Source: a virus
Length of the DNA: 21,501 nt
Virus record (IMG/VR): IMGVR_UViG_3300035698_016499
Coordinates: 1 to 21,501 of that record
Reading direction: 5' to 3' (one strand)
Of the stretch, positions 8,914-21,501 are shown piece by piece. Under the pieces are notes generated by a model. That model was not told where the DNA came from, did not search any database, and saw only the letters and a list, made by a program, of their open reading frames with translations. The position numbers and the translations under genes are program-made. Numbering within the stretch: position 1 is the first letter of the stretch; each line of letters begins with the position of its first letter.

Positions 8914-9558
8914 TCAAAATGTGAACCTCCAGGTAATGGTAAGCACTGCCGTTGCTGGCTTAGTAACTACAGAGAAAGTCAGGTAGTTAGCCATCAGGTC
9001 CAGTTCCGTCACATCAATTGTCGCGTCGTAATCTGTTGGCCCATTATTAATAGGATTTGAAACTGAAGGACTAGCTGAAAAGGTGCTCATCAAGCCCATT
9101 TCATTTAGCGGTCCGACCGCCTCGGCCTCTCCAAAAGTGGTTGTGAAATCCACAATATTTGTAGGGTAAGCTACAGCCACCCCAATGGCATTTCTAAACT
9201 GCACAGATACCGCTTTACGTTCGATCTCATTATTTAGTTTTCTTTGCCCTTGTTGCGGAGCATCCGGAGAAAGAAGATTCCCTGTAGCGCCCGTACCCAC
9301 ACCCAACATGGTTATACCATTATTAAGTGAGGGGGTAGGGTCCAAGCTATTCTTAAACAATCTTGCAGCTAGGATACCCGCATCGAAAGTGATGACATTT
9401 TTATGTTCCCAATGTCCCAGCACTTCTCCGGTCTCACCGTCCCGTAGGTCGAAAATAACCGTCCCTTCCGCACCTGTAAACATTTCGGGAAAGGCACCTA
9501 AATTAAGCCCCATCTTTACCCCCTGCTGAAGATCTCTCATTTGTTCTTTATGCTTCAT
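8914..9558 (-). CDS. Phage tail/fibre-associated structural protein, 214 aa
   Basis: I place the start at ATG 9558 rather than the in-frame GTG at 9570: the purine-rich AAGGTGG lies eight bases before the ATG but overlaps the GTG itself, leaving that start without a usable binding site. The protein has the architecture of a common phage tail-accessory module. After a leader comes HWEHKNVITFDAGILAARLF (residues about 49-68), then TMLGVGTGATGNL, then an E/R-rich segment, and it ends with a beta strand, LTITWRFTF. The pattern 'N.I...G..LA..L...I..MAVGTG' followed by a C-terminal 'L..TWR..F' is familiar to me from tail-fibre or baseplate-associated proteins of many phages. There are no enzyme motifs. 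It lies between the giant adhesin-like gene and the 1186-residue gene, after the widest gap in the window, so it may begin a separate transcript. A minor tail or baseplate role is likely. Confidence 0.85.
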   Translation of the reverse strand: MKHKEQMRDLQQGVKMGLNLGAFPEMFTGAEGTVIFDLRDGETGEVLGHWEHKNVITFDAGILAARLFKNSLDPTPSLNNGITMLGVGTGATGNLLSPDAPQQGQRKLNNEIERKAVSVQFRNAIGVAVAYPTNIVDFTTTFGEAEAVGPLNEMGLMSTFSASPSVSNPINNGPTDYDATIDVTELDLMANYLTFSVVTKPATAVLTITWRFTF

Positions 9559-9566
9559 GGTAATTA

Positions 9567-9573
9567 CCACCTT
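9567..9573 (-). promoter_or_regulatory. Ribosome binding site that decides the start at 9558
   Basis: AAGGTGG on the minus strand, eight bases before ATG 9558. It overlaps the alternative GTG at 9570, which argues against that longer start. Confidence 0.6.
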
Positions 9574-9706: not shown

Positions 9707-12700
9707 TTAGCGAATCTGGACTATAGGATAAAGAATAACCTCGCCTAGGTTACCACCTAAAGGCTGCATCCCAATGATATTCCCTAATGAATCCACCACC
9801 GGCCCCATATAAGACCCACCGGAAGCAAATAAAAATGTGTCCGACATCCCAGGACCCTGCGTAAGGATGTCATTTTTAGGGGTTGCTGCATTTTCCCAGA
9901 AGCTAGTGCCCTTCAAGCCTATTACAGAAGCTCCCGTTGCAGCGCCTACCTTATCCCCTGTTGCAAACAACCCAGCATTTTGACCCACACCCACAAGAGG
10001 AGCACCTGTGCCCGTCTTTGAGTAAATGTCCTCACCCTCAGCATCGGTATAACCTGAAGCACCCTGGGGCAAAGTCCCTTCACAGATACTAGAGATAAGA
10101 CCTGACGTACCCTCGTTTGAGACCTCCATGAACTTCATGTTTTCATAAAGGGTCTCAGGGGAATCCTCAAAGGTCAGTATGTCATAAGGCTCCCCAACCG
10201 TAGAACCCTGTACCTCAACCTGAGTTGCGGGGGCCATCTGACTCTTCGGCATCGGAGGGGTACCCTCATTTAAAAGGGTCATGCCGTCCATAAAAGGCTG
10301 AGCTAGAAGATAAGTATCCGTTACCGGTTGTCCTGGATAGAACATCACAGTTACGGCTGCAGTCGCGGAAGAGAAGCTATAGCCCTCGGATAAAGTCACC
10401 TTCTGTCGGTCTATATCAAAAGTCCACTCCGCCCTAGTATATATGGTGGAGCCATCAATGATTTTATACACCCCACTGGCATACATATGTGTCGGGGCCA
10501 AGACCAATTCCGTATCAGACATTACTTGGATCGTTGCCGTTTCCAGCGTTTTGTCTAGTAGTAACTCCCCACTAGTGATCACATTGGCTTGGTTAAGAAC
10601 CATATGTTCTGGGGATTTATGTTCATCCGTAATGGAAGCGAAAATATTATATCGAACCCAATCCCAACGTTGCTGAGTAATAGCTTGCGGATTAAGTGCC
10701 CCAAAGGATAACGAACCGAAAACGGAGGGGCTCTTAGGAATGACGGATTCTTCTACATTGATCCAACCTTGAGAAGGAACCGCTATAGGCGTAGCATATC
10801 CGGAACCAGGTACACCAGGTGTCTCCGGCACATAATAAGGGGGGTCCGGTAAGTCTGGGCGTAACATTGTAACACCCCAACCAGGTGTCTTTAGGAGCCT
10901 TATCTCCATAAGATCACGCCAGTCCATTTCCGCTACTATAGGATCTACCTCATCAGAGTTAGGCGTTGCAGTAGAATCCGTCCGGGGGATTTCCCATTGA
11001 TCTATGTCGTCCTTATCTCCGCCTAACCAAATACCCAGGGTACGTTTTACGGAAGCTGGCGGAACTACTGTATATGAAACGGATCTCCATTTAGAGGTGG
11101 CATCCTGAGTAGGGGCGACGGCACCAAAAACAAACTGGTCCGCACCACCCGTTGCAAAGGCTGCTGTAGTAGAGGCTGGGGTTTGTAGCACATTGTCTAA
11201 TAACAAAGACACCACACCGGCAGATGTTACAAGCCGGTAGTCGTGAAGCTCCCCGTCTGTCCAATCAAAGTTGTAGGATTGAATTAAAGCGGGTACCTCA
11301 CTCCATAACTCTACTGCTGGGGTTGCCCCACTTTTTAGGTTCACCTGGATAGTGAAGCCCGCAGAAGAGGATAACAAGAACAAGGGTCCTTCCGTATCAC
11401 TCGCTACACGTACCTCTCCTATTCTATCCCCAGAGTCACCGCAAAGCATTGAACTAGTATCCACGGAACCTACATAACGACCAGATTCACCGGCAGCTAC
11501 TTCCAAAACAAAGTCAGGCTCTACGGAAGCACCCTCGTTACCAAGGTCCCCATTAAAGACCCATCCCTGATCTACAACACTTGTAACCCCAGCGGCACTG
11601 ATAGAAGGCATACTAATTAGTTGCCGCCAAGGGTCTCCGCCTTCCCAATACATAAGGGTAGCAAGGCGAACGATACTCTCTTTGTCCTGCACAACGATTT
11701 CAGCATCCCCCGCCCCTAGTATGGCGGTGTCTACTTCTAGTTGTACTCTCAAATCTAAATTAGCTTCGGGGTTTAGGAAAGGTTCAATCCTCTCATAACC
11801 ATAAACTAAGGGTAAAGCGTCACTTCCGGATGTGCTTTTAAGAAGCATCCCACCCGTGGATAATATTTGGGAGTGTCCAAAGGAATCTTTAAGGAACCAT
11901 TCGTCTGTCGTATCTACTTCAGGAAGAACCAACATCTCCGTACTAACTACTTGCGTATACCCCCGTAAAGTAGTCTGATCCGGAACAACACCATAACGAT
12001 AAAAAGACCAGGCTGATTGAGATATGGCATAGGAATCCAAGGAACCCCAAAACGCCTGCCCCTTATATTCGGTACTTAGAAGCAAACCTGTTTCCGCAGG
12101 CTGTGGCATATCAACGGTTTGTCCGTCCAAAGCCGCCACTCTACCAGAGATCCTTCCCGCAACATCTAAAGTAGCCGTCTTTAACACTGGGTCTACTACC
12201 ATACGGTAAGTATCAGCTTCTTGCTGTCCCTTGTCCGTCCAGTCCGCTTCGAAAACTACATCCGGATAAGCGTTATCAAACCTACGGTAATCACTAGGGA
12301 ATTCCGGGGATACTGTAATCTCTGTTGTGCCATCTGAGTGAGCTATAATAGCTGTAGCCGTATAGACACCTATCTGAGAGCCCTCAAGGATATTGAAACG
12401 ACCACCCACCGTATATCCGGTAGGAAGGTTTGCGGTTAGGGCGGTACAGACATTACTTGCCGTGATTGTAATCCCCGCTGTAGGCCCAACACTCCAACCC
12501 TCAAGCAAGTGCATCTTTGTAGGATCTAACAAAAGACCCACATGCTTCATCGTGTCCCCTATAGAGGACGGCAATTCTAAAGCTCCAGCCATATATAGAT
12601 GATGGTTATCGTGAACACCGAAACCAACACCCGTAAATACCCCATGGGGAACGATAGTTTGAGCTAAAGGCAGGCTGAACCTGCCCACGACATATAAAGA

Positions 12701-14704
12701 GGAGGGGAACGTGAAATCAATCTCATCCCAATACATAGCCACTTTAGGATTGTCTGGGCTGTACGGACCGGACAGGTTATCTATGACTGTATAGACACCA
12801 TCACTCACGGTACCTGTATCCGTCCCCACAAGGGTCCAAGGGGGCGTTTCATCCACGGGCCGTTGCGTTCCCTCATAGACTCTAGTAGAGCCCTCTGTGT
12901 GGCTTACAAAGGCTGGTATCTGTGAAACACTAGGGTTCTGATTTAGAGTCATTGTAGTAGGACTATTTAGAAGAGCGGATTGTGCTTTCTCAAAACCTAT
13001 ATACCGATGACTTATCCAAAGAGGTTCCGGGGTTTCTACCGGACCTAAAACTACACCCATAGGGAAACGGCTAATGTCAGGAGCACCCTTGGGATGTGTT
13101 GCGTCTTGTACTTGTTCACCATGGAAAGCGGGATCGTGATGTCCAACAGCCCTGTCCCATTTATTTAATGCGGCACCTGGAAGATTCAAACCGGATAACG
13201 GGAGGATAGGCGTAGCCATCCAATGATAATCTATTTTGACATCCCCTTGAGGGTCGCCTGGAAATAAACGGGGAATAGGGATAGTAGGGGTAACTTGTCC
13301 ATTAAAAGGATTAACCTCACTAACCTCAACTTCTACACCATTTACCCATAAAGCCACATCTTGTTTAGTGGCTGGGGTCATATCACCCCAGTCCTTAACT
13401 AAAGGACCTCGCTGAGTAAATAGCCAAGGATGTGTTAAGGCACCGGACCCCGTAAATGTACTCACAGCACTAAAAACAGGATTCCATGCTGCGGAGTACA
13501 CCGTCTGGGAATGCTGGAACTGAACATCAAGGAGTTTGAATCCCGTAATAGCAACCGCAGTAGGGGGGAAAACAAACTTAACTCCAGCACCACTAAGAGA
13601 GGAGGCTGCACTAAGGTTTGTTATTAGCGTAGTCAGTATGGGGGCATCATTCCATAGGAAGGTGATGAAATTAGCTTTTATATTCCGTACAACGGATAAA
13701 GTAACGTCCCCGACACTCCAGTCTACTACCCCCACATCAGACCAAGCACCGGAGCTGAACGCAACACGGTAACCACCCGCTACTTTTTGAAGTGTTATCG
13801 TTAACTCTCGGCCAATTCCCGTGGGGCCGTCTGCCACCACTATCTCAGCGATATCAATAATGTCGGGCGGGAGCAATGCCGGTTGGTATGTTGTCCCCCC
13901 GGCATTAAAAGTGATGTCCGTCCGGAAAGTTGCACCCGTTTGTATTGGACTAAGGGATACGAATTCCCATCCATAAGTTGCGTTCAGGTGTTTATCTAAA
14001 TTGAGGCTGCCACTCTGTATCGCAGAGGCCCCATTCGCTGGGAAAACCTCTGTCCCCGTAAAAGTCGTGCTTTGAGAAGGTAAGATTGATCCATCATAAG
14101 CGATGCCGGAAGCGGGATTAAGGGTGCAACTATAATCTAAAGTAGTCATCCCAAATACTTGCTGATGGACTTGCGTATCATCCCCACCATAAGGAAAGGT
14201 AATGACACTAGGGGTAATCGCTATTGGATAATCCGGAGTAGAACTAAACACATAGGAAGAGGAAGCCGTTATTCCCGTTGACGGGTCTGGCTCTCCAACA
14301 GGTGGTAGCATGGCGTGGCTAAACTGGTATAAAAGCTCATCCCCACCCAATACGGAGACACTAACTGTAGGGGCTTCCCCTCTTGCTAAGAATCCCACAG
14401 TTATCACACCGTCTAGGACATTACCTGCCAAATCCGTAGGACCCGCCGCAGAGACAACATATGATCCACCTAAAGTAGTTCCCGTATGTGTTAGGATAAC
14501 GGATAAAGCCCCGACACCCCCCATTGTCCCTACCTGAACGGCCACTACCGTTGAGGGGGCTACACTACTAGGTGTTAGCGTATAGGAGGCACGGTCAGTT
14601 AGTAGAGCATTAGCGGTGTCCATCTCCTCAGAGAAAAAGACCTCTATCTCCCAACCGGTAAGGCTGGTGGCGGACGTCAAGAAAGGTTGTATTAGGTCTG
14701 CCAT
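9707..14704 (-). CDS. Giant tail/adhesin-like virion protein with Ig-like and lectin-like modules, 1665 aa
   Basis: An intact 1665-residue gene starting at ATG 14704 with AAAGGA just upstream. Residues about 8-100 look like an SbsA-type Ig-like domain: WEIEVFFSEEMDTANALLTD, then 'YTLTP', a valine-rich strand, and a closing 'PTDLAGNVLDG'. A weaker second copy may follow. Blocks near residues 243-400, 640-900, 1000-1200 and 1230-1340 read as jelly-roll, LamG-like modules. At least three appear to end in the same signature, FWGS/VFGA/VFGS, then about 7-10 residues, then W and an aromatic or basic Tyr (residues about 883, 1191 and 1327). Residues about 560-580 (ISHRYIGFEKAQSALLNSP) look like a separate virion motif. 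The protein is Thr/Ser/Gly-rich with few Cys and no catalytic motif, signal peptide or membrane span. A glycan- or cell-surface-binding tail protein is likely; the module calls are by eye. Confidence 0.87.
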   Translation of the reverse strand: MADLIQPFLTSATSLTGWEIEVFFSEEMDTANALLTDRASYTLTPSSVAPSTVVAVQVGTMGGVGALSVILTHTGTTLGGSYVVSAAGPTDLAGNVLDGVITVGFLARGEAPTVSVSVLGGDELLYQFSHAMLPPVGEPDPSTGITASSSYVFSSTPDYPIAITPSVITFPYGGDDTQVHQQVFGMTTLDYSCTLNPASGIAYDGSILPSQSTTFTGTEVFPANGASAIQSGSLNLDKHLNATYGWEFVSLSPIQTGATFRTDITFNAGGTTYQPALLPPDIIDIAEIVVADGPTGIGRELTITLQKVAGGYRVAFSSGAWSDVGVVDWSVGDVTLSVVRNIKANFITFLWNDAPILTTLITNLSAASSLSGAGVKFVFPPTAVAITGFKLLDVQFQHSQTVYSAAWNPVFSAVSTFTGSGALTHPWLFTQRGPLVKDWGDMTPATKQDVALWVNGVEVEVSEVNPFNGQVTPTIPIPRLFPGDPQGDVKIDYHWMATPILPLSGLNLPGAALNKWDRAVGHHDPAFHGEQVQDATHPKGAPDISRFPMGVVLGPVETPEPLWISHRYIGFEKAQSALLNSPTTMTLNQNPSVSQIPAFVSHTEGSTRVYEGTQRPVDETPPWTLVGTDTGTVSDGVYTVIDNLSGPYSPDNPKVAMYWDEIDFTFPSSLYVVGRFSLPLAQTIVPHGVFTGVGFGVHDNHHLYMAGALELPSSIGDTMKHVGLLLDPTKMHLLEGWSVGPTAGITITASNVCTALTANLPTGYTVGGRFNILEGSQIGVYTATAIIAHSDGTTEITVSPEFPSDYRRFDNAYPDVVFEADWTDKGQQEADTYRMVVDPVLKTATLDVAGRISGRVAALDGQTVDMPQPAETGLLLSTEYKGQAFWGSLDSYAISQSAWSFYRYGVVPDQTTLRGYTQVVSTEMLVLPEVDTTDEWFLKDSFGHSQILSTGGMLLKSTSGSDALPLVYGYERIEPFLNPEANLDLRVQLEVDTAILGAGDAEIVVQDKESIVRLATLMYWEGGDPWRQLISMPSISAAGVTSVVDQGWVFNGDLGNEGASVEPDFVLEVAAGESGRYVGSVDTSSMLCGDSGDRIGEVRVASDTEGPLFLLSSSAGFTIQVNLKSGATPAVELWSEVPALIQSYNFDWTDGELHDYRLVTSAGVVSLLLDNVLQTPASTTAAFATGGADQFVFGAVAPTQDATSKWRSVSYTVVPPASVKRTLGIWLGGDKDDIDQWEIPRTDSTATPNSDEVDPIVAEMDWRDLMEIRLLKTPGWGVTMLRPDLPDPPYYVPETPGVPGSGYATPIAVPSQGWINVEESVIPKSPSVFGSLSFGALNPQAITQQRWDWVRYNIFASITDEHKSPEHMVLNQANVITSGELLLDKTLETATIQVMSDTELVLAPTHMYASGVYKIIDGSTIYTRAEWTFDIDRQKVTLSEGYSFSSATAAVTVMFYPGQPVTDTYLLAQPFMDGMTLLNEGTPPMPKSQMAPATQVEVQGSTVGEPYDILTFEDSPETLYENMKFMEVSNEGTSGLISSICEGTLPQGASGYTDAEGEDIYSKTGTGAPLVGVGQNAGLFATGDKVGAATGASVIGLKGTSFWENAATPKNDILTQGPGMSDTFLFASGGSYMGPVVDSLGNIIGMQPLGGNLGEVILYPIVQIR

Positions 14705-14740
14705 AGCATTTCCTTTGGGCCTACATATGCACTACCCTTA

Positions 14741-14752
14741 CTTAAAATATAG
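14741..14752 (-). promoter_or_regulatory. AT-rich TATA-like element in intergenic gap
   Basis: CTATATTTTAAG on the minus strand lies in the 62-base gap before the 1665-residue gene, about 40 bases from its ATG. The TATATT could act as a -10 but the sequence 17 bases upstream (TTATCT) is a poor -35. Noted mainly because similar AT-rich elements occupy the other wide gaps of the window. Confidence 0.18.
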
Positions 14753-14766
14753 GCGCATCAATGTAC

Positions 14767-16203
14767 CTAGATAAAGAACTGCTCCGTAGCATCTTCCTGT
14801 TCTACTTCCCTAGGCACTTGTTGACCCAAACGATCCACCGTCACCTCATAGGATTGACCCGTAACACTCACACCCATCCTCCGCCTTAGACGAAGAATAC
14901 TAGGTGCTACTTTGACCCCTGTTGCGGGAGCGGCAACTAAACTATGTCCAGCAGGGCCACCGTGTTGCCCCATGACTGTCTTAATTCGATACGTCCCGGC
15001 ATTGTATCCAGTATAGAAGGTAAGTATCTCACCCTCTTGTATGGTGTGCCATAACGATTGAGCAGTATCGGTAACCTCATCCCCAACTACCGAAGCCGTT
15101 CCGGTAAGGCCCGTGGGTGAAGTGGAGTAACTACGGACTACAGTATCATCACGAATGAAAGCTTTGACTTCCATAACTTCATAACGACCTATGTGATACA
15201 TATCTTGAGATGCGGGCGTACCTTCAATACCACCCACATGAATAGAATTAGGTCCTGTCAGGATAGTTAGCTGGGTTCCATTTAGCGTGGGGTTCTGAAT
15301 AGAACTAAAGTCCTTAGTGGGATCACTGAAAAGACTTCTATCCGCCCAAGTAATACCAGCTTCTCCTGCTATCCGGGTGGCGCCTAAGCAATACCGTCGG
15401 AAGTCCTGGTAATAATAGGACTCCATTTTATAGCCGTCATAGCCATAGGACTCCACCGGGTCACTTAGGGTCTCTTGGAAAAGATGTCTATAGTCGTATA
15501 GGGAATGAGCAGGTTTGAGAGCCCTGAGAACTATATAAACATTTTGGAGTAGGGTGAAAGGGTCCTCTGGGAAACCATATAACTGAACATCTTTCCCCCC
15601 TATCTCAATGACATCCGTAGGGTGTGACACATTGATCTCAAAAGAAAAAGCGTCCGCTGCCCCCCAAGCAGAAGTAGGTACCAATGTTCCGTTTTCATCT
15701 CGAACCAAGAGTTTCCGAGCTTCAAGGCCTTTCTCTATCACAGTAACCACGGAATCTGTAAGTAGCTCCACACCGGATTTCTGAACGGAAGCCGTAGCAC
15801 CCGCCAAAAGAAGACCCACCATCCGTTGAAGGAAAGTTCTATATGTCAGATCGCCCTCTATAGTAGGGTATCCATAACTATCCGCATCAGGAAAGATTAG
15901 CCCTCCTAATATCTGATAAAGCACCTCTGGACGAGTGTAATCATAAAAGGAATCCGCGAATACTTCCTGGGCGGTAATTTGAAAGTCCGCTATTTGCTCT
16001 GCTGCGGAACGAAACTGCGTATCATAGAAAGGCCCAGCCGTCTGACTTAGATAGTTACTAGGTAGTAGTTGTCTAAAGACGACCATCACCCGTTCTACTT
16101 GTTCCTGTACCTTTAGGATATGGTCTTGACTAGGCTCTTCCCAAGGTGAAGGATTCTGGTCCAGTAAACCTGGGAGTAGGTTTTTGTCTACAGGATTAGT
16201 CAT
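14767..16203 (-). CDS. Putative baseplate/tail protein downstream of J-like gene, 478 aa
   Basis: An intact 478-residue gene starting at ATG 16203, with AAAGG about ten bases upstream and an eight-base overlap with the preceding small gene; it ends in TAG. The N-terminal half is helical and acidic-aromatic: residues about 46-110 contain SNYLSQTAGPFYDTQFRSAA and later YRTFLQRMVGLLLAGATASV. A central segment from residue about 150 looks beta-rich, followed by a Tyr-rich patch (DGYKMESYYYQDFRR) near residues 260-275. The C-terminal third looks like small beta domains. In P2- and Mu-like phages the gene after baseplate J is tail protein I, and the N-terminal helical region with 'R.......GATA' loosely recalls that family. 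This similarity is weak, so I call it a baseplate or tail protein by position. There is no signal peptide, membrane span or catalytic motif. Confidence 0.82.
   Translation of the reverse strand: MTNPVDKNLLPGLLDQNPSPWEEPSQDHILKVQEQVERVMVVFRQLLPSNYLSQTAGPFYDTQFRSAAEQIADFQITAQEVFADSFYDYTRPEVLYQILGGLIFPDADSYGYPTIEGDLTYRTFLQRMVGLLLAGATASVQKSGVELLTDSVVTVIEKGLEARKLLVRDENGTLVPTSAWGAADAFSFEINVSHPTDVIEIGGKDVQLYGFPEDPFTLLQNVYIVLRALKPAHSLYDYRHLFQETLSDPVESYGYDGYKMESYYYQDFRRYCLGATRIAGEAGITWADRSLFSDPTKDFSSIQNPTLNGTQLTILTGPNSIHVGGIEGTPASQDMYHIGRYEVMEVKAFIRDDTVVRSYSTSPTGLTGTASVVGDEVTDTAQSLWHTIQEGEILTFYTGYNAGTYRIKTVMGQHGGPAGHSLVAAPATGVKVAPSILRLRRRMGVSVTGQSYEVTVDRLGQQVPREVEQEDATEQFFI
16188..16203 (-). repeat. 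Junction repeat, copy 1
   Basis: On the plus strand CTACAGGATTAGTCAT covers the start of the 478-residue gene (MTNPV). A copy with one mismatch occurs at 16483-16498, the start of the last small paralogue (MANPV). The shared start context suggests a recombination or duplication boundary. Confidence 0.6.
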
Positions 16204-16498
16204 CTGAAATAGCCTTTATCATAGCGTCATACTCTTTCCGCCCGTCGTGCCATTTCGTTTCCCAGACCATTCGCCAACGGAAACCTTTAGGGTCAAGACA
16301 AGGCACAATGCAGTGCTGTTCCATCTCATTCAATTTGCGGTGATACACAATCCTATCCAAGAGATAGCCCATCCAAGGCAGCTTTCTGAGTATCCTAAAC
16401 TCAGCTTCCCCACCCATCAGGTGCTCTTTACTTTTGTAAACAGTTACGATGGGTTTCCTCAGACGATACGTCTTCTCTATACCTACAGGATTAGCCAT
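16196..16498 (-). CDS. Small paralogue C of FHRKL/RWRM family, unknown function, 100 aa
   Basis: A 100-residue protein from ATG 16498, with AAGGCGG upstream lying inside the end of the preceding gene (eight-base overlap). Its own end overlaps the next gene by eight bases. Shared with the two upstream paralogues are PIVTV (residues 16-20), VYHRKL (51-56), an E three residues later, and GFRWRM (72-77) followed by a Trp. It also has CIVPC (63-67) and DPKG just after, as in paralogue B. The N-terminus is longer and more basic than in the other two and includes an extra LRKLPW segment (38-42). It is charged and rich in Trp, Met, His and Lys, unlike the neighbouring virion proteins. No signal peptide or membrane span. 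I do not recognise the family; possible roles are a small baseplate component, an assembly chaperone, or an accessory gene. Confidence 0.8.
   Translation of the reverse strand: MANPVGIEKTYRLRKPIVTVYKSKEHLMGGEAEFRILRKLPWMGYLLDRIVYHRKLNEMEQHCIVPCLDPKGFRWRMVWETKWHDGRKEYDAMIKAISDD
16483..16498 (-). repeat. Junction repeat, copy 2
   Basis: CTACAGGATTAGCCAT on the plus strand matches copy 1 at 16188-16203 in 15 of 16 bases. Both copies encode the first residues of a gene and end on its ATG. Confidence 0.6.
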
Positions 16499-16817
16499 TT
16501 AAAGCCGCCTTCGACATCTCTTTGTATTTTTCAGCATCCGCAGCATCAAGAATTGCCAGTATCATTTCATCATAAGCTTTGTTATCCACAACGTTGTTAT
16601 CCGCTAGGGTGATCCATTCCGAGGCCCCTGCCATTCTCCAACGAAAACCTTTAGGGTCCATGCAAGGTGTAATACACAGCATTTCAAGCCAGGTTAATTT
16701 CCGATGAAATTCTGCCGAGCTTATAAACGTACCATGACTAAAATAGTAAACATCTACCGGGAGCGATTGCCCAACGCGAGTCACCGTTACTATGGGGTCT
16801 TTTTTCTTAGTTGCCAT
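16491..16817 (-). CDS. Small paralogue B of FHRKL/RWRM family, unknown function, 108 aa
   Basis: A 108-residue protein from ATG 16817; GAGGCGGC upstream serves as ribosome binding site and also codes for the last residues of the gene before it. The overlap with the upstream gene is 11 bases and with the downstream gene eight bases. The shared core is DPIVTV (residues 7-12), EFHRKL (36-41), E at 45, CITPC (48-52), DPKGFRWRM (54-62) and W at 68. The C-terminal part is an acidic-amphipathic helix with KAYDEMI, close to KEYDAMI in paralogue C. The last residues, KAALNG, match EAALNG of paralogue A almost exactly. DNA identity with paralogue C is visible in places (AAACCTTTAGGGTC at 16645-16658 and 16281-16294), so the copies are not ancient. 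Function is unknown; the family is not one I can name. Confidence 0.82.
   Translation of the reverse strand: MATKKKDPIVTVTRVGQSLPVDVYYFSHGTFISSAEFHRKLTWLEMLCITPCMDPKGFRWRMAGASEWITLADNNVVDNKAYDEMILAILDAADAEKYKEMSKAALNG
16494..16510 (-). repeat. 17-base direct repeat at paralogue junction, copy 1
   Basis: AGGCGGCTTTAAATGGC on the minus strand contains the ribosome binding site and start codon of paralogue C and the last codons of paralogue B. The identical 17 bases occur at 16813-16829. Confidence 0.8.
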
Positions 16818-17091
16818 TTAAAGCCGCCTCATCCAAACCCTCAAGACCTTCCTTCCACAACCTGTCCTCTGCCATACGCCAACGAATTGGTGGATCATTT
16901 AGCCCACGGTGCATAAGTGGAGCAAACATCGCCCATTCAAATGGGGCTAACTTCCTGTGAAACACTATCGCCTCCAAGGCATAGCATTTAAAGTGCCCCC
17001 CGTCATAAATGGTTTTCGTTTGCCAGGGCTTCTCGTCTACAATCTTGTATTGCATATCTCTATGTACAGTTACCATTGGGTTTTTCTTCAT
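16807..17091 (-). CDS. Small paralogue A of FHRKL/RWRM family, unknown function, 94 aa
   Basis: A 94-residue protein from ATG 17091, overlapping the J-like gene by four bases (ATGA) with GGGAG as ribosome binding site inside that gene. It shares PMVTV (residues 5-9), VFHRKL (43-48), E at 52 and IRWRM (69-73) plus a following Trp with the two downstream paralogues. It is the most divergent: it has no CxxPC pair (FAPLM in its place) and carries about four extra residues (HRGLNDPP) before RWRM. The C-terminus ends EGLDEAALNGN. Composition is rich in Trp, Met, His and Lys. There is no signal peptide or membrane span. I do not recognise the family. The position directly after a baseplate gene suggests co-production with the wedge proteins. 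Confidence 0.8.
   Translation of the reverse strand: MKKNPMVTVHRDMQYKIVDEKPWQTKTIYDGGHFKCYALEAIVFHRKLAPFEWAMFAPLMHRGLNDPPIRWRMAEDRLWKEGLEGLDEAALNGN
16813..16829 (-). repeat. 17-base direct repeat at paralogue junction, copy 2
   Basis: Identical to 16494-16510. Here it encodes the AALNG end of paralogue A together with the ribosome binding site and ATG of paralogue B, 319 bases upstream of the other copy. The spacing equals one gene unit, as expected for tandem duplication. Confidence 0.8.
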
Positions 17092-20000
17092 ATGTTTCTC
17101 CCTGTCACTAAGGTCTTGAAGTTGGTGTCCTCGTCGTAGGTGAATTCCAGATCCCCTAAAACTAAATACTCTGCCGGTCCCGGTGCTATACTTTTGGCAC
17201 CGTCATCGTCGTGAGCAATATAAGTTACTTTCAATGTACCATCCGAAGGTGTTGTACCGGTAGGAAGCGCAAGAAGTACCCTGTTAGCGGTTTCACCCGT
17301 GTAGTTTGGTATATCCATACCATCGTTACCTATGATACAGGCGGCGTTAGCTGAGCCCTTCAGGGGCAACCCATTATACTGCGGCACATAATCATAAAGT
17401 GTTAGGGGGATGTCATCGATATAAACTCCCCGGTACTCGTTAGAGTCCCCGCCGCCATCCATTGTGTTACTGTAAAAGGGATTCTTCACCAAGTAAACCT
17501 GTACCGCATCCGTTTCCCAAGGGGTACCTGAAAGCTGAACCCAGTCCGTATCCCTTACGGTCGTAAGCACCTCTTCCCGCACAACCAAGGCGCCATCTTG
17601 ACGAGCCTGCAAAGATAAAGGTACCACCACATAAGACACTCCGGGTACGGATTCTATAACTTGGATGACATCACCAGGGCGAAGAGGTTGTCCTAGCACC
17701 AGAGTTCCAAATAAACGACCTAACTCCGTTCGGATATTCCCGTCCACAATCGAAGAGGACTGGTTTTGACTAAGTACCACCGTAGCTTTTATGTCCACCC
17801 CAACATCAATAGCTTCTTTCGTCACCACATCAGCAGTACAGTGTCTCGTAGCATCCACCGTGGTTTGCACATTCCCCACCATAGAATTAGTGGTGTATTG
17901 GATGGTGTAATTTTCGTCATGTTGGTAGTCTACAATAACCTGAAGGCCCTCTGTAAGACGCCCGCCCGTCACGGGAACAAAGGCTAAGGGGGTCTCGCCG
18001 TCCTCGTTAAGGAAACTAAAGTCCTTACTCGTATTTGGGGAGAGCGGTCCAACATATTCGATGGATCTATCAAAGTTGTAGACATGCACGGTGTAAGGAT
18101 TAGTCCCCAAGTTATTCAAGTATTCCGGTCCTTGAAGAATAACGTGGTCTTCCGCTTCTACTACAAGGGGTGTCCCGGAAGGGATGTTCACGGGGGTTGT
18201 TCCGTCTAAGGGTTCTACCACTTGCAAGTAATCCCCAGCTTCCGTGGAACGACCTAAAACAAGAGGGTCCCCCGGGTGATATAAATTGTATGCGGAAGGA
18301 CTGACAATATCCGTAGTGCTCTCCGAGGAGTTCCTGTAAAAGGTTAGCACCTCAGTAACGGGCTGACGCTCAAACACATGCTTATCACTTGTCCGGAAAC
18401 GGAAAGACCCTTGGAAGATGTCCCGGAAATCATATTGAGTTGGGTCATTATAAGCGGCTGAAAGCTGCAAGACATCCGGTCGGATTACTTCCGCATCACG
18501 TAAATCCAGTATGACCTCACCAGTTTCAGTAGTAGCCGTGAAATAAAGATCCCAATCCGGTATATCTAGCATCTCGATAATAGGGTTGTCCGCAGAGATA
18601 CGTGGGTCCAGTGCCCGGAACTTAAGATTACCTATTTCACCTACGGGCTCAAACTGCCCCCGGATAACGGTCTCAAAGGAAAAAGCGAATGAGTCCGTAA
18701 CGGTAGCAAGGCTCTCCCCCCTCGTCCAAATATCTACTTTGCCGCCCCAATGAGTACCAGTACTCTCGTCTAAGTCCCGCATCATAAGACTATGCCCCGC
18801 CTCTACTACATTTACCTGGCGAACACCTGGTACGGTTGCTGCTTTTTGGGTGTAGCCCCGATAGGTTCCTGAGTCCACAGAGGACAAGACACCATCCGCA
18901 CGGGAAGCTAAACTTGCATTAGTCTCTGTATTCCGTCCCCCAAAGGTTTTGTCCGTGTTAGTGACAAAAACATCCGAGATCCCTTCCGGAATAACTGTAA
19001 TCTGTCCGGCGGAAAGGTTGCCAGCTTCCCCAGCGTCTATAGCTTGGATATAAGCACGAATGGACCAGCGCCCTGTAGCGGGATTGTAAACTGTTCCGGA
19101 ACCCGTAGCAGAGATACGGGCGGCTGATGTTGTCCTAAATAGAACACCCCCGTTAGAGATGATGGTGCCAATAGGAACGAACCTAGTCGTAGAGGGCCTC
19201 ACGGTCATGTAAAAAATAACCTCTCCTCTTGCCCTGTAACCGGATCTTCTAGTTGTACCCCTACGAGCGGCCAGATGATCAAAAGCATTGTCAATCATGT
19301 TCTGAGTGGATGCTGTATTTTGAAGGAAAAAGGCTTGCTGTAAAGCTAACTTATAAGGACTCTGCAGTACCGGTACGGAAACACCCTCCCCTGTAGGATC
19401 ATCTATAGCTAATAAGGTAGCTGTGCTTTGAGCAGTCTGTAAAAAGCCAACGATAAATCGAATACGCTCAGCTTCGGTTGAAAAGGGATCAATGAAAGTA
19501 TCCCTCAAATATGTCCCAGGCTTTACATCCACTTCAGGGTGAGACCGGAAAATAGCTAGGGTAGTATTCCTTACCACTTGCTGCCGTGTTACTCCAGGAA
19601 GGTTTGCTATTCGGGGGGTTACGATAAGGGGTGTCCCTGTAACCTCCTGTGACATGGCTGATTCGTACTCAACATCGCTAATCAAATACAATGCCGTCAC
19701 CGTGTAATAAATGGGGTCCTCATCAGGAATAGCTAGAAACTCATTATAAGGAACCGCGGGGTTCGTGCCGTCCGTAGGTGTAGCGGATCTATTATGAGTA
19801 AAAGAGAATTCCTTTCTTTCATTTACAGCATCTACCCTTACGGTAGTTCTAAACTTAGTCACGGTATCAGCGATTAGGATACCCTCATCAAAATTTGCTT
19901 GGATAACCGTCCCGGCCCTATCCACTTGGGTCCCAGTCACCCGGAAATACAAAGGATCAGCTACCGGTGTGCCATCATCTTGCAATACCACATCCGTATC

Positions 20001-20555
20001 TGTAACTAAGGTACCCGCTTCAGTAGTCACCTGCTCCGTATCATAGGAAATAACAGGTTGAAGATTAATACGCTTATAACCCGACAACCCCCCACCAGGG
20101 GAGATAGAGGCATGGAAGTTGTAGCCCGTAACATTTGGATCAGTCAGCCCTGGAAGGGTGATTTTAACTGTGCTGTCCTGTTGCTCTATATACACTCCGG
20201 AAGGAGCTATCACCGTAGCTTTAACATTCCGGTCTAAAGAAAGGTTAGCCTCAATGACACCCGGTAGAGTAGACTCCCCGTTAGATAAGACGGACACTAC
20301 CTCGACCCTGTTACCACCTTGCAATAATTGTAAGCCCTGTGGATACGCCGAAGGATTAGGCACCGTGAAAGTAGTACCCTCAAATAGAATGTAATCCGGA
20401 TCAGATGAAAAGCCGGAACCTCTTATAGAGACTTGCATGTCCGCTGTGTCGGGGTCCATTGTACCCGTAAAGAAGCGGGCAGATACATCCGTGCTAAAAA
20501 TATAAACCTCACGGTATACACCGTCAGGGGATAGGAATTTGGGTGTTACTGCCAT
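17088..20555 (-). CDS. Baseplate J / gp6-like wedge protein, 1155 aa
   Basis: An intact 1155-residue gene from ATG 20555, which shares its first base with the last base of the upstream stop (TAATG) and is preceded by GGAGG. The core at residues about 438-600 has the baseplate J signature: a strand with VIFYM, 'VPIGTIISNGGVLFRT', a spacer, 'AIDAGEAGNLSAGQITVIP', then 'VTNTDKTFGGRNTET' and a helix with 'YRGYTQKAATVPGVRQV'. These elements are characteristic of the Mu gp47, P2 J and T4 gp6 family, which forms the baseplate wedge ring. Residues about 25-170 are beta-rich and include GYNFHASISPGGGLSGYKRI, resembling a fibronectin-like module. The segment near 900-960 (EAIDVGVDIKATVVLSQNQ) matches the usual C-terminal domain of J-like proteins. 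At 1155 residues it is longer than P2 J (about 300) or T4 gp6 (about 660), because of added N- and C-terminal domains. Confidence 0.92.
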   Translation of the reverse strand: MAVTPKFLSPDGVYREVYIFSTDVSARFFTGTMDPDTADMQVSIRGSGFSSDPDYILFEGTTFTVPNPSAYPQGLQLLQGGNRVEVVSVLSNGESTLPGVIEANLSLDRNVKATVIAPSGVYIEQQDSTVKITLPGLTDPNVTGYNFHASISPGGGLSGYKRINLQPVISYDTEQVTTEAGTLVTDTDVVLQDDGTPVADPLYFRVTGTQVDRAGTVIQANFDEGILIADTVTKFRTTVRVDAVNERKEFSFTHNRSATPTDGTNPAVPYNEFLAIPDEDPIYYTVTALYLISDVEYESAMSQEVTGTPLIVTPRIANLPGVTRQQVVRNTTLAIFRSHPEVDVKPGTYLRDTFIDPFSTEAERIRFIVGFLQTAQSTATLLAIDDPTGEGVSVPVLQSPYKLALQQAFFLQNTASTQNMIDNAFDHLAARRGTTRRSGYRARGEVIFYMTVRPSTTRFVPIGTIISNGGVLFRTTSAARISATGSGTVYNPATGRWSIRAYIQAIDAGEAGNLSAGQITVIPEGISDVFVTNTDKTFGGRNTETNASLASRADGVLSSVDSGTYRGYTQKAATVPGVRQVNVVEAGHSLMMRDLDESTGTHWGGKVDIWTRGESLATVTDSFAFSFETVIRGQFEPVGEIGNLKFRALDPRISADNPIIEMLDIPDWDLYFTATTETGEVILDLRDAEVIRPDVLQLSAAYNDPTQYDFRDIFQGSFRFRTSDKHVFERQPVTEVLTFYRNSSESTTDIVSPSAYNLYHPGDPLVLGRSTEAGDYLQVVEPLDGTTPVNIPSGTPLVVEAEDHVILQGPEYLNNLGTNPYTVHVYNFDRSIEYVGPLSPNTSKDFSFLNEDGETPLAFVPVTGGRLTEGLQVIVDYQHDENYTIQYTTNSMVGNVQTTVDATRHCTADVVTKEAIDVGVDIKATVVLSQNQSSSIVDGNIRTELGRLFGTLVLGQPLRPGDVIQVIESVPGVSYVVVPLSLQARQDGALVVREEVLTTVRDTDWVQLSGTPWETDAVQVYLVKNPFYSNTMDGGGDSNEYRGVYIDDIPLTLYDYVPQYNGLPLKGSANAACIIGNDGMDIPNYTGETANRVLLALPTGTTPSDGTLKVTYIAHDDDGAKSIAPGPAEYLVLGDLEFTYDEDTNFKTLVTGRNI

Positions 20556-21501
20556 TAGGCTCCTCCACTAGATGACGAAAGGCCTACTGCCTCTGCCCCT
20601 AACATTAGTCCATTAGACCCCATTAGGGCTACCGTTCCAGGTGTTGTGAATACAATATTAAGCTCTATGGGTTTCGATGAGGCATTTCTCACCGTCACAT
20701 CAATCATGAAAGTAGTGGGATCTTGCTGATGTGGCTTGACCTCCACCTTATCCACGGAATATAAACGCTCTTTATAGGAGACGTCCTGGTACTTCGCTTG
20801 CTCCGTTTGAACACTCTGATACTTAGCTAAAGCCCGCCTCACGTCCTCATTTATCAAAGTAGAGACCCCAGAGAGAGCCTTTGCCCCAATACGTGATTGT
20901 AGGTTTGTGCCGTACCAGGGATGGTAAGGATTAGAACCTTTTACCGTCAGCACGATTTTCAAGGCAGCCTGGTAAAGCAGATCCTCATTTGCAATCATTA
21001 TACTTTGGCCACTCTCATCAAAACGAATGTCATTCTCAACGTATGTCCCACTGCAACGACGACAACGCTGTACCGCCATAGAATAAGTCACCTTGAAAGT
21101 AGGATTCGTTTGAAGAGGCTCTATAAACACGGGGTATTTAGAACCCCCATTTGCCTGGGTTGCTACTAATTGCCACGGCGGATATATTTGCCTCCCCATA
21201 GCACGTCGTTGATAGGTGTTTTTTCTCACAGCACCAAAGCCCAAAGAAGCTGCTGCACTACCCCCTATCTCTACATAGGATTTAGTACCCACAGAATGGG
21301 TATCCATAAACGACAGGTGCCCGTTAAAGGTTTCAGCAAAAGCTACAGCTAAGCCGTCCCGTTGAAGTAACGTCAATATTTGCTTGGCCGTATAGCGAGT
21401 AAGGCTTTGCACATCAAAAGTATAGGAATAATCGCCCCCGGAAGTTTTAAGGGTAACGGTATCCTCACCAGGGATGATATCAAAAGGACCGGAAAGGGCA
21501 C
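20555..21501 (-). CDS. gp25-like baseplate wedge protein, 5' end beyond window
   Basis: The reading frame is open to the right edge, giving 314 visible codons and a TAA at 20555-20557. A GTG at 21412 opens a frame of 285 codons, but no ribosome binding site precedes it and coding text continues upstream (FDIIPGEDTVTLKTSGGDYS), so the true start lies outside. The first visible part is a beta domain ending 'SYVEIGGSAAASLGFG', a pattern frequent in phage and flagellin-like proteins. A CRRCSGT pair of cysteines follows at about 21041-21064. The region from about 20985 to 20620 matches the GPW/gp25 lysozyme-like family of T4 gp25: 'LLYQAALKIVLTVKGSNP', YGT, 'SRIG', a helix with DVRRALAKYQ, a conserved E, and a closing 'FMIDVTVRN'. 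This family forms the wedge next to the inner tail tube and needs no catalytic activity. The gene sits directly before the J-like gene, as in many myoviruses. Confidence 0.88.
   Translation of the reverse strand, partial: ALSGPFDIIPGEDTVTLKTSGGDYSYTFDVQSLTRYTAKQILTLLQRDGLAVAFAETFNGHLSFMDTHSVGTKSYVEIGGSAAASLGFGAVRKNTYQRRAMGRQIYPPWQLVATQANGGSKYPVFIEPLQTNPTFKVTYSMAVQRCRRCSGTYVENDIRFDESGQSIMIANEDLLYQAALKIVLTVKGSNPYHPWYGTNLQSRIGAKALSGVSTLINEDVRRALAKYQSVQTEQAKYQDVSYKERLYSVDKVEVKPHQQDPTTFMIDVTVRNASSKPIELNIVFTTPGTVALMGSNGLMLGAEAVGLSSSSGGA

Follow-up and report, generated by a model that had tools for sequence, protein, structure and literature searches.

Phage morons and other accessory genes within structural operons are small, sporadic and dispensable and lie between conserved structural genes, and classical morons are equipped with a promoter and a terminator of their own. 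In a survey, homing endonuclease genes of phages were often found close to or inside essential genes, including structural ones (PMC10448857). The three small genes considered here, which stand in tandem in a baseplate operon, resemble morons as small, sporadic and apparently dispensable insertions amid structural genes, but differ from the classical kind in forming a tandem triplet whose frames overlap those of the adjoining genes. They also resemble GIY-YIG/NUMOD3-type genes and TnpB, which are sporadic occupants of the same junction in related phages, but these are much larger, carry recognizable nuclease-related domains and have no sequence likeness to the trio. Among annotated phages the closest is LR745208 (uncultured, 485 kb), with J and wedge proteins each 38% identical to those of our locus; there the J gene abuts the wedge gene.

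The window, that is the whole stretch of DNA analysed, is a 21.5-kb virus record with all long genes on the minus strand, and its phage is represented by this metagenome-derived fragment only. The operon runs from a gp25-like gene through Baseplate_J, the three small genes and a 478-aa wedge-like gene to large tail proteins.

20555..21412, minus strand: gp25-like baseplate gene, 285 aa (PHROG baseplate protein match, 4.3e-7)
17088..20555, minus strand: Baseplate_J gene, 1155 aa, flanking the trio (Pfam PF04865, 2.8e-21)
16807..17091, minus strand: copy 1, 94 aa, with KNPMVTV ... FHRKL ... E ... RWRM ... W and without the Cys pair
16491..16817, minus strand: copy 2, 108 aa, with CITPC-MDPKG
16196..16498, minus strand: copy 3, 100 aa, with CIVPC-LDPKG and a longer N-terminus, MANPVGIEKTYRLRK
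14767..16203, minus strand: wedge-like baseplate gene, 478 aa, flanking the trio (72% identical to its L009 counterpart)

Three consecutive genes of 94, 108 and 100 codons between the J-like gene and the next tail gene had been reported in a first-pass annotation, and they were recovered as open reading frames on the minus strand as described there. The start of copy 1 overlaps the J stop (ATGA), copy 2 overlaps copy 1 by 11 nt and copy 3 by 8 nt, and copy 3 in turn runs 8 nt into the wedge gene, the small-gene overlaps with neighbours thus ranging over 4–11 nt; a purine-rich Shine–Dalgarno-like stretch is present at each of the three. A search for a promoter of the trio's own gave no excess over shuffles, terminator-like matches at the trio are few and weak, and no tRNA or Rfam elements were found in the window. 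Since its frames overlap both J and the wedge gene, the small gene is probably co-translated with them, and we suggest that this would occur late. Elsewhere in the window, a 218-aa protein (8914–9570) matches phrog_5417 (function unknown; 1.5e-18).

Judged by alignment, the three small genes are true paralogues, homologous beyond chance, as had been proposed from their shared ordered core. BLASTP pairs copy 2 (108 aa) with copy 3 (100 aa) at E 9e-18 and copy 1 (94 aa) with copy 3 at E 1e-8; leave-one-out profiles recover the individual copies at 40.1, 42.2 and 55.8 bits, scores reached by 0 of 2000 shuffles (shuffle maximum about 11 bits); and P-x-VTV, HRKL, E, RWRM and W are common to all three, with 20 invariant columns. 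Chance similarity of the motifs is ruled out by these E-values and profiles, and an assembly artefact by the divergence of the copies, which is too great for a false repeat. Between copies pS is 0.55–0.78, at or near saturation, which argues that the duplications are old, and pN is 0.42–0.44; given pN below pS in all three, they look like constrained coding genes. Codon bias is weak in copy 1 and absent in copies 2 and 3, so that the coding case rests on pN below pS together with the conserved motifs.

Closer relatives than LR745208 came from IMG/VR. The 109-kb contig L009 (IMGVR_UViG_3300023257_000013; J 69% and wedge 72% identical to the window), and likewise L007 and L010, has one 76-aa homologue where the J stop meets the wedge start, with 31% core identity and a profile score of 33 bits (0 of 2000 shuffles as high). 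This ORF shares with the trio the ITV...FHR...E...RW(K)M...W core and the J/wedge location, but it is single, lacks the Cys pair, has a shorter tail and is about 31–38% identical; its frame shares 8 nt with the start of the wedge gene, an arrangement also seen where copies 2 and 3 overlap. An 85-aa ORF at the J/wedge junction of L020 (IMGVR_UViG_3300013120_000063; also L021 and L057) is a probable distant homologue (5 of 2000 shuffles as high, hhalign P 0.008, P about 0.003–0.008), which presents LPW...E...RWR...W in matching order at the matching junction but has not kept HRKL. The J tree unites the window, L009 and L015 in one clade (support 100/99), with L008 next (100/100). No small gene was found at the J/wedge junction of L015 (J 69%), L008 (J 61%) or L091, and the whole LR745208 record (485 kb) as well as other long contigs lack a homologue.

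About 44 distinguishable J/wedge junctions were read (37 and 7 more). J abuts the wedge gene at 34 of the roughly 44, where, most relatives being contigs and some of these short, emptiness means absence at the junction and in the contig DNA examined. Relatives with the same J and wedge proteins therefore mostly have no small gene, and a trio is atypical for baseplates of this kind; small-gene occupants are the three copies of the window, the single L009 homologue and the probable distant one of L020. Considering the three, one and no copies in relatives and the many empty junctions, we take the trio to be a dispensable accessory insertion rather than a core baseplate part, although some of the ‘empty’ short contigs may carry the gene elsewhere. 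Accessory insertion followed by tandem duplication is very probably what occurred, and we argue strongly that the small gene would be unneeded for baseplate assembly as such. The first-pass annotation had also offered subunits of a hetero-oligomer or dedicated assembly chaperones. That the small proteins are required baseplate parts of this sort, whether a three-subunit hetero-oligomer or chaperones dedicated to J or wedge, would agree with the frame overlaps with J and the wedge gene and with the retention of three copies under constraint, but it is highly improbable, since junctions at which J is 58–69% identical hold one copy (L009) or none (L015, L008 and L091). These counts leave an obligate three-subunit complex unsupported, and likewise a dedicated chaperone. 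Of the readings put forward earlier, a diversifying accessory family is the one that survives, the gene being sporadic in relatives and fast-evolving: window copies compared with L009 give pN 0.42–0.54, against 0.21 for J and 0.19 for wedge, with pN still below pS, and the small gene thus evolves faster than both flanking genes.

The earlier statement that this signature belongs to no named family is borne out by the searches. Pfam and NCBIfam profile searches of the small proteins returned no significant family, PADLOC and PDB searches no usable match, and direct searches with the small-protein sequences in annotated phage records and genome contigs no match; the one PHROG match, of unknown function, is marginal (E 0.026) and concerns copy 1 only. 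Membership of at most five limits profiles, trees and models. The model of the 76-aa L009 protein (pLDDT 84, five sequences used) is small and beta-rich, ordered strand–strand–strand–helix–strand–strand, and that of copy 3 is poor (pLDDT 64); fold searches gave no match with the latter and no confident match with the former. On a second look, the L009 model aligned with cytidine deaminases (PDB 1jtk and others) at Z 6.1 over 72 residues and rmsd 3.1, which is below the tool's meaningful level, with Foldseek E about 1 and identity of 1–12%. The resemblance is topological only and the zinc motif is missing: L009 and copy 1 have no Cys with which to form the site (H/C)-x-E ... P-C-x-x-C, and the H...E...CxxPC of copies 2 and 3 differs from it in order and spacing. 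A cytidine-deaminase-like fold was not adopted, the Z being weak and the zinc residues missing. A LamG/ConA-like motif considered for the C-terminus of the L009 protein, LDEVIFHRPPTVLELAAL, was also set aside, having neither Pfam nor fold support.

Several other occupants, including GIY-YIG/NUMOD3-type genes at 3 of the roughly 44 junctions (L078, L080 and L049), were read between J and wedge.

L078:2560-3447: GIY-YIG gene (Pfam GIY-YIG 1e-10 to 1e-9, the range for L078 and L080)
L080:4802-5932: GIY-YIG gene (Pfam GIY-YIG, same range for the two)
L049:9462-10304: NUMOD3 and HTH gene (NUMOD3 1e-6; GIY-YIG-like N-terminus by eye)
L048:9462-9707: in-frame deletion remnant, 81 aa, keeping both ends of an L049-like gene
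L099:4661-5863: TnpB (OrfB_IS605) gene at the J/wedge junction
L029:9492-9731 and L068:5741-5992: ORF of about 80 aa (79–83 aa) at the J/wedge junction of another clade

The last of these was rejected as a family member (1723 of 2000 shuffles as high, hhalign P 0.39). L077 and L078 cluster at 95% or more in J, yet the junction is empty in the former and holds the endonuclease gene in the latter. In this huge-phage group the J/wedge junction is a hot-spot for insertions, holding nuclease-type genes, TnpB and small accessory genes, and it fits the survey picture of homing endonuclease sites (PMC10448857). A second insertion site near the operon is seen in LR745208, with a GIY-YIG/NUMOD3 gene (L004:4756-5694) upstream of the gp25-like gene. 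That the small family and the nuclease genes occupy one junction, as sporadic insertions beside an essential gene, shows a shared location and not kinship. The trio might still descend from a mobile nuclease: a homing endonuclease would have lost its catalytic part, and the DNA-binding or other domain that remained as an orphan would later have been kept and duplicated. GIY-YIG/NUMOD3-type genes and TnpB lie at the very same junction, and the 81-aa remnant in L048 indicates that such a route exists there. We consider this unlikely, given that no family member resembles GIY-YIG, NUMOD3, HTH or TnpB (Pfam, copies and L009) and that copy 2 and the L020 protein are acidic, unlike a typical DNA-binding domain. 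It is a quite improbable further conjecture that the small gene is a domesticated homing-site occupant, plugging the J/wedge junction against GIY-YIG-type or TnpB invaders, perhaps encoding a competitor or repressor, and expanding in tandem by capture of the wedge start.

Accessory insertion with tandem duplication, the reading we prefer, agrees with a set of repeats at the gene junctions.

16494..16510, minus strand: 17-nt repeat AGGCGGCTTTAAATGGC at the copy 2/copy 3 junction, covering the upstream gene end, Shine–Dalgarno-like stretch and start codon
16813..16829, minus strand: 17-nt repeat AGGCGGCTTTAAATGGC, exact, at the copy 1/copy 2 junction
16483..16511, minus strand: 29-nt repeat at the copy 3 start, ATGGCTAATCCTGTAG, 79% identical to the wedge start
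16188..16216, minus strand: other member of the 29-nt repeat, at the wedge gene start, ATGACTAATCCTGTAG
16579-16608: 15-nt tandem repeat inside copy 2, fitting the extra residues of this copy

The starts of copy 3 and of the wedge gene share 12 identical nt in register and 18 matches over 26 flanking positions (mean 8.6), the best of 45 gene-start pairs in the window, and the encoded N-termini are alike (MANPV... in copy 3, MTNPV... in wedge). From the exact repeat at both internal junctions and the wedge-like start of copy 3, we conclude that the copies probably arose by tandem duplication across the stop/start overlap, and copy 3 seems to begin with a duplicate captured from the wedge gene start. 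One small lineage-specific accessory gene would have been set into the J/wedge stop/start overlap and then multiplied. On the simplest reading the duplicated segment would run from the small-gene body into the first wedge codons, and the new copy, read from the duplicated wedge start, would thereby have acquired the longer N-terminus of copy 3; breakpoints most probably fell in or near the stop/start overlap, the trio growing tandemly.

The Cys pair is limited to copies 2 and 3; L009, L020 and copy 1 are without it. The first-pass annotation was right that one of the three copies (copy 1) lacks the pair, but its reading of this as a loss is less well placed: since the single-copy L009 protein and that of L020 also lack it, the simpler and more likely course is that the copy 2/3 lineage acquired it, the direction of the Cys change, like the order of the duplications, being unrooted. 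Cys ligands such as a small zinc-binding protein might use are therefore found in copies 2 and 3 only and are not family-wide, and on present sequences a metal site is not a feature of the small-gene family.

With regard to function, we tentatively propose, from genomic context, that the small proteins have a baseplate-associated role, a proposal we hold at somewhat less than an even chance. The product may be an optional small protein acting as decoration, spacer or assembly helper bound to J or wedge; the copies would have diverged around FHRKL...E...RWRM...W as a structural core, with the variable N-terminal part and the tail as the specific part. Against such a role, the spread of net charge among family members, from +4.8 to −3.3, argues against one conserved binding surface, selfish genes also land here, so that the overlap may merely mark the insertion point, and neither a fold nor a family match points to function. 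The same charge differences, together with sporadic presence at an insertion hot-spot, tandem expansion and evolution faster than both flanks, would suit a late-expressed moron-like cargo that acts in the cell, e.g. on host defence or on superinfecting phages, riding on baseplate translation and diversifying in an arms race. This we think rather unlikely, though less so than descent from a nuclease, because the frames overlap structural genes and no promoter excess was found, unlike in classical morons; nor was there a PADLOC match, a weak point given that the PADLOC library comprises defence genes. Taken whole, the statement that a lineage-specific accessory gene in tandem copies encodes an optional baseplate-associated protein is in our judgement slightly favoured.

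The trio represents a genuine small accessory family that had not been described, and the way it grew is instructive; it is not a new kind of baseplate machine. Its description adds an unnamed small protein family and reveals a junction hot-spot in a widespread huge-phage baseplate operon. It also offers an example of how a paralogous array may grow in a compact operon, by duplication over a stop/start overlap in which the start of the following gene was apparently put to use again. As close relatives have no, one or three copies, the role could be tested once one of them can be cultured.

Wedge and giant tail protein are separate in the window (9707–16203; 478 and 1665 aa), and form one fused gene in L008 (8989-14136, 1715 aa), in LR745208 (L004:11385-16676, 1763 aa) and in L068 (5992-12537, 2181 aa); the N-terminal ~430 aa of the 1665-aa window protein are missing from the L008 fusion. 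L009 carries two extra genes between wedge and giant tail genes (10512-14206; 174 aa, lysine-rich, and 1004 aa), of which the window has none.
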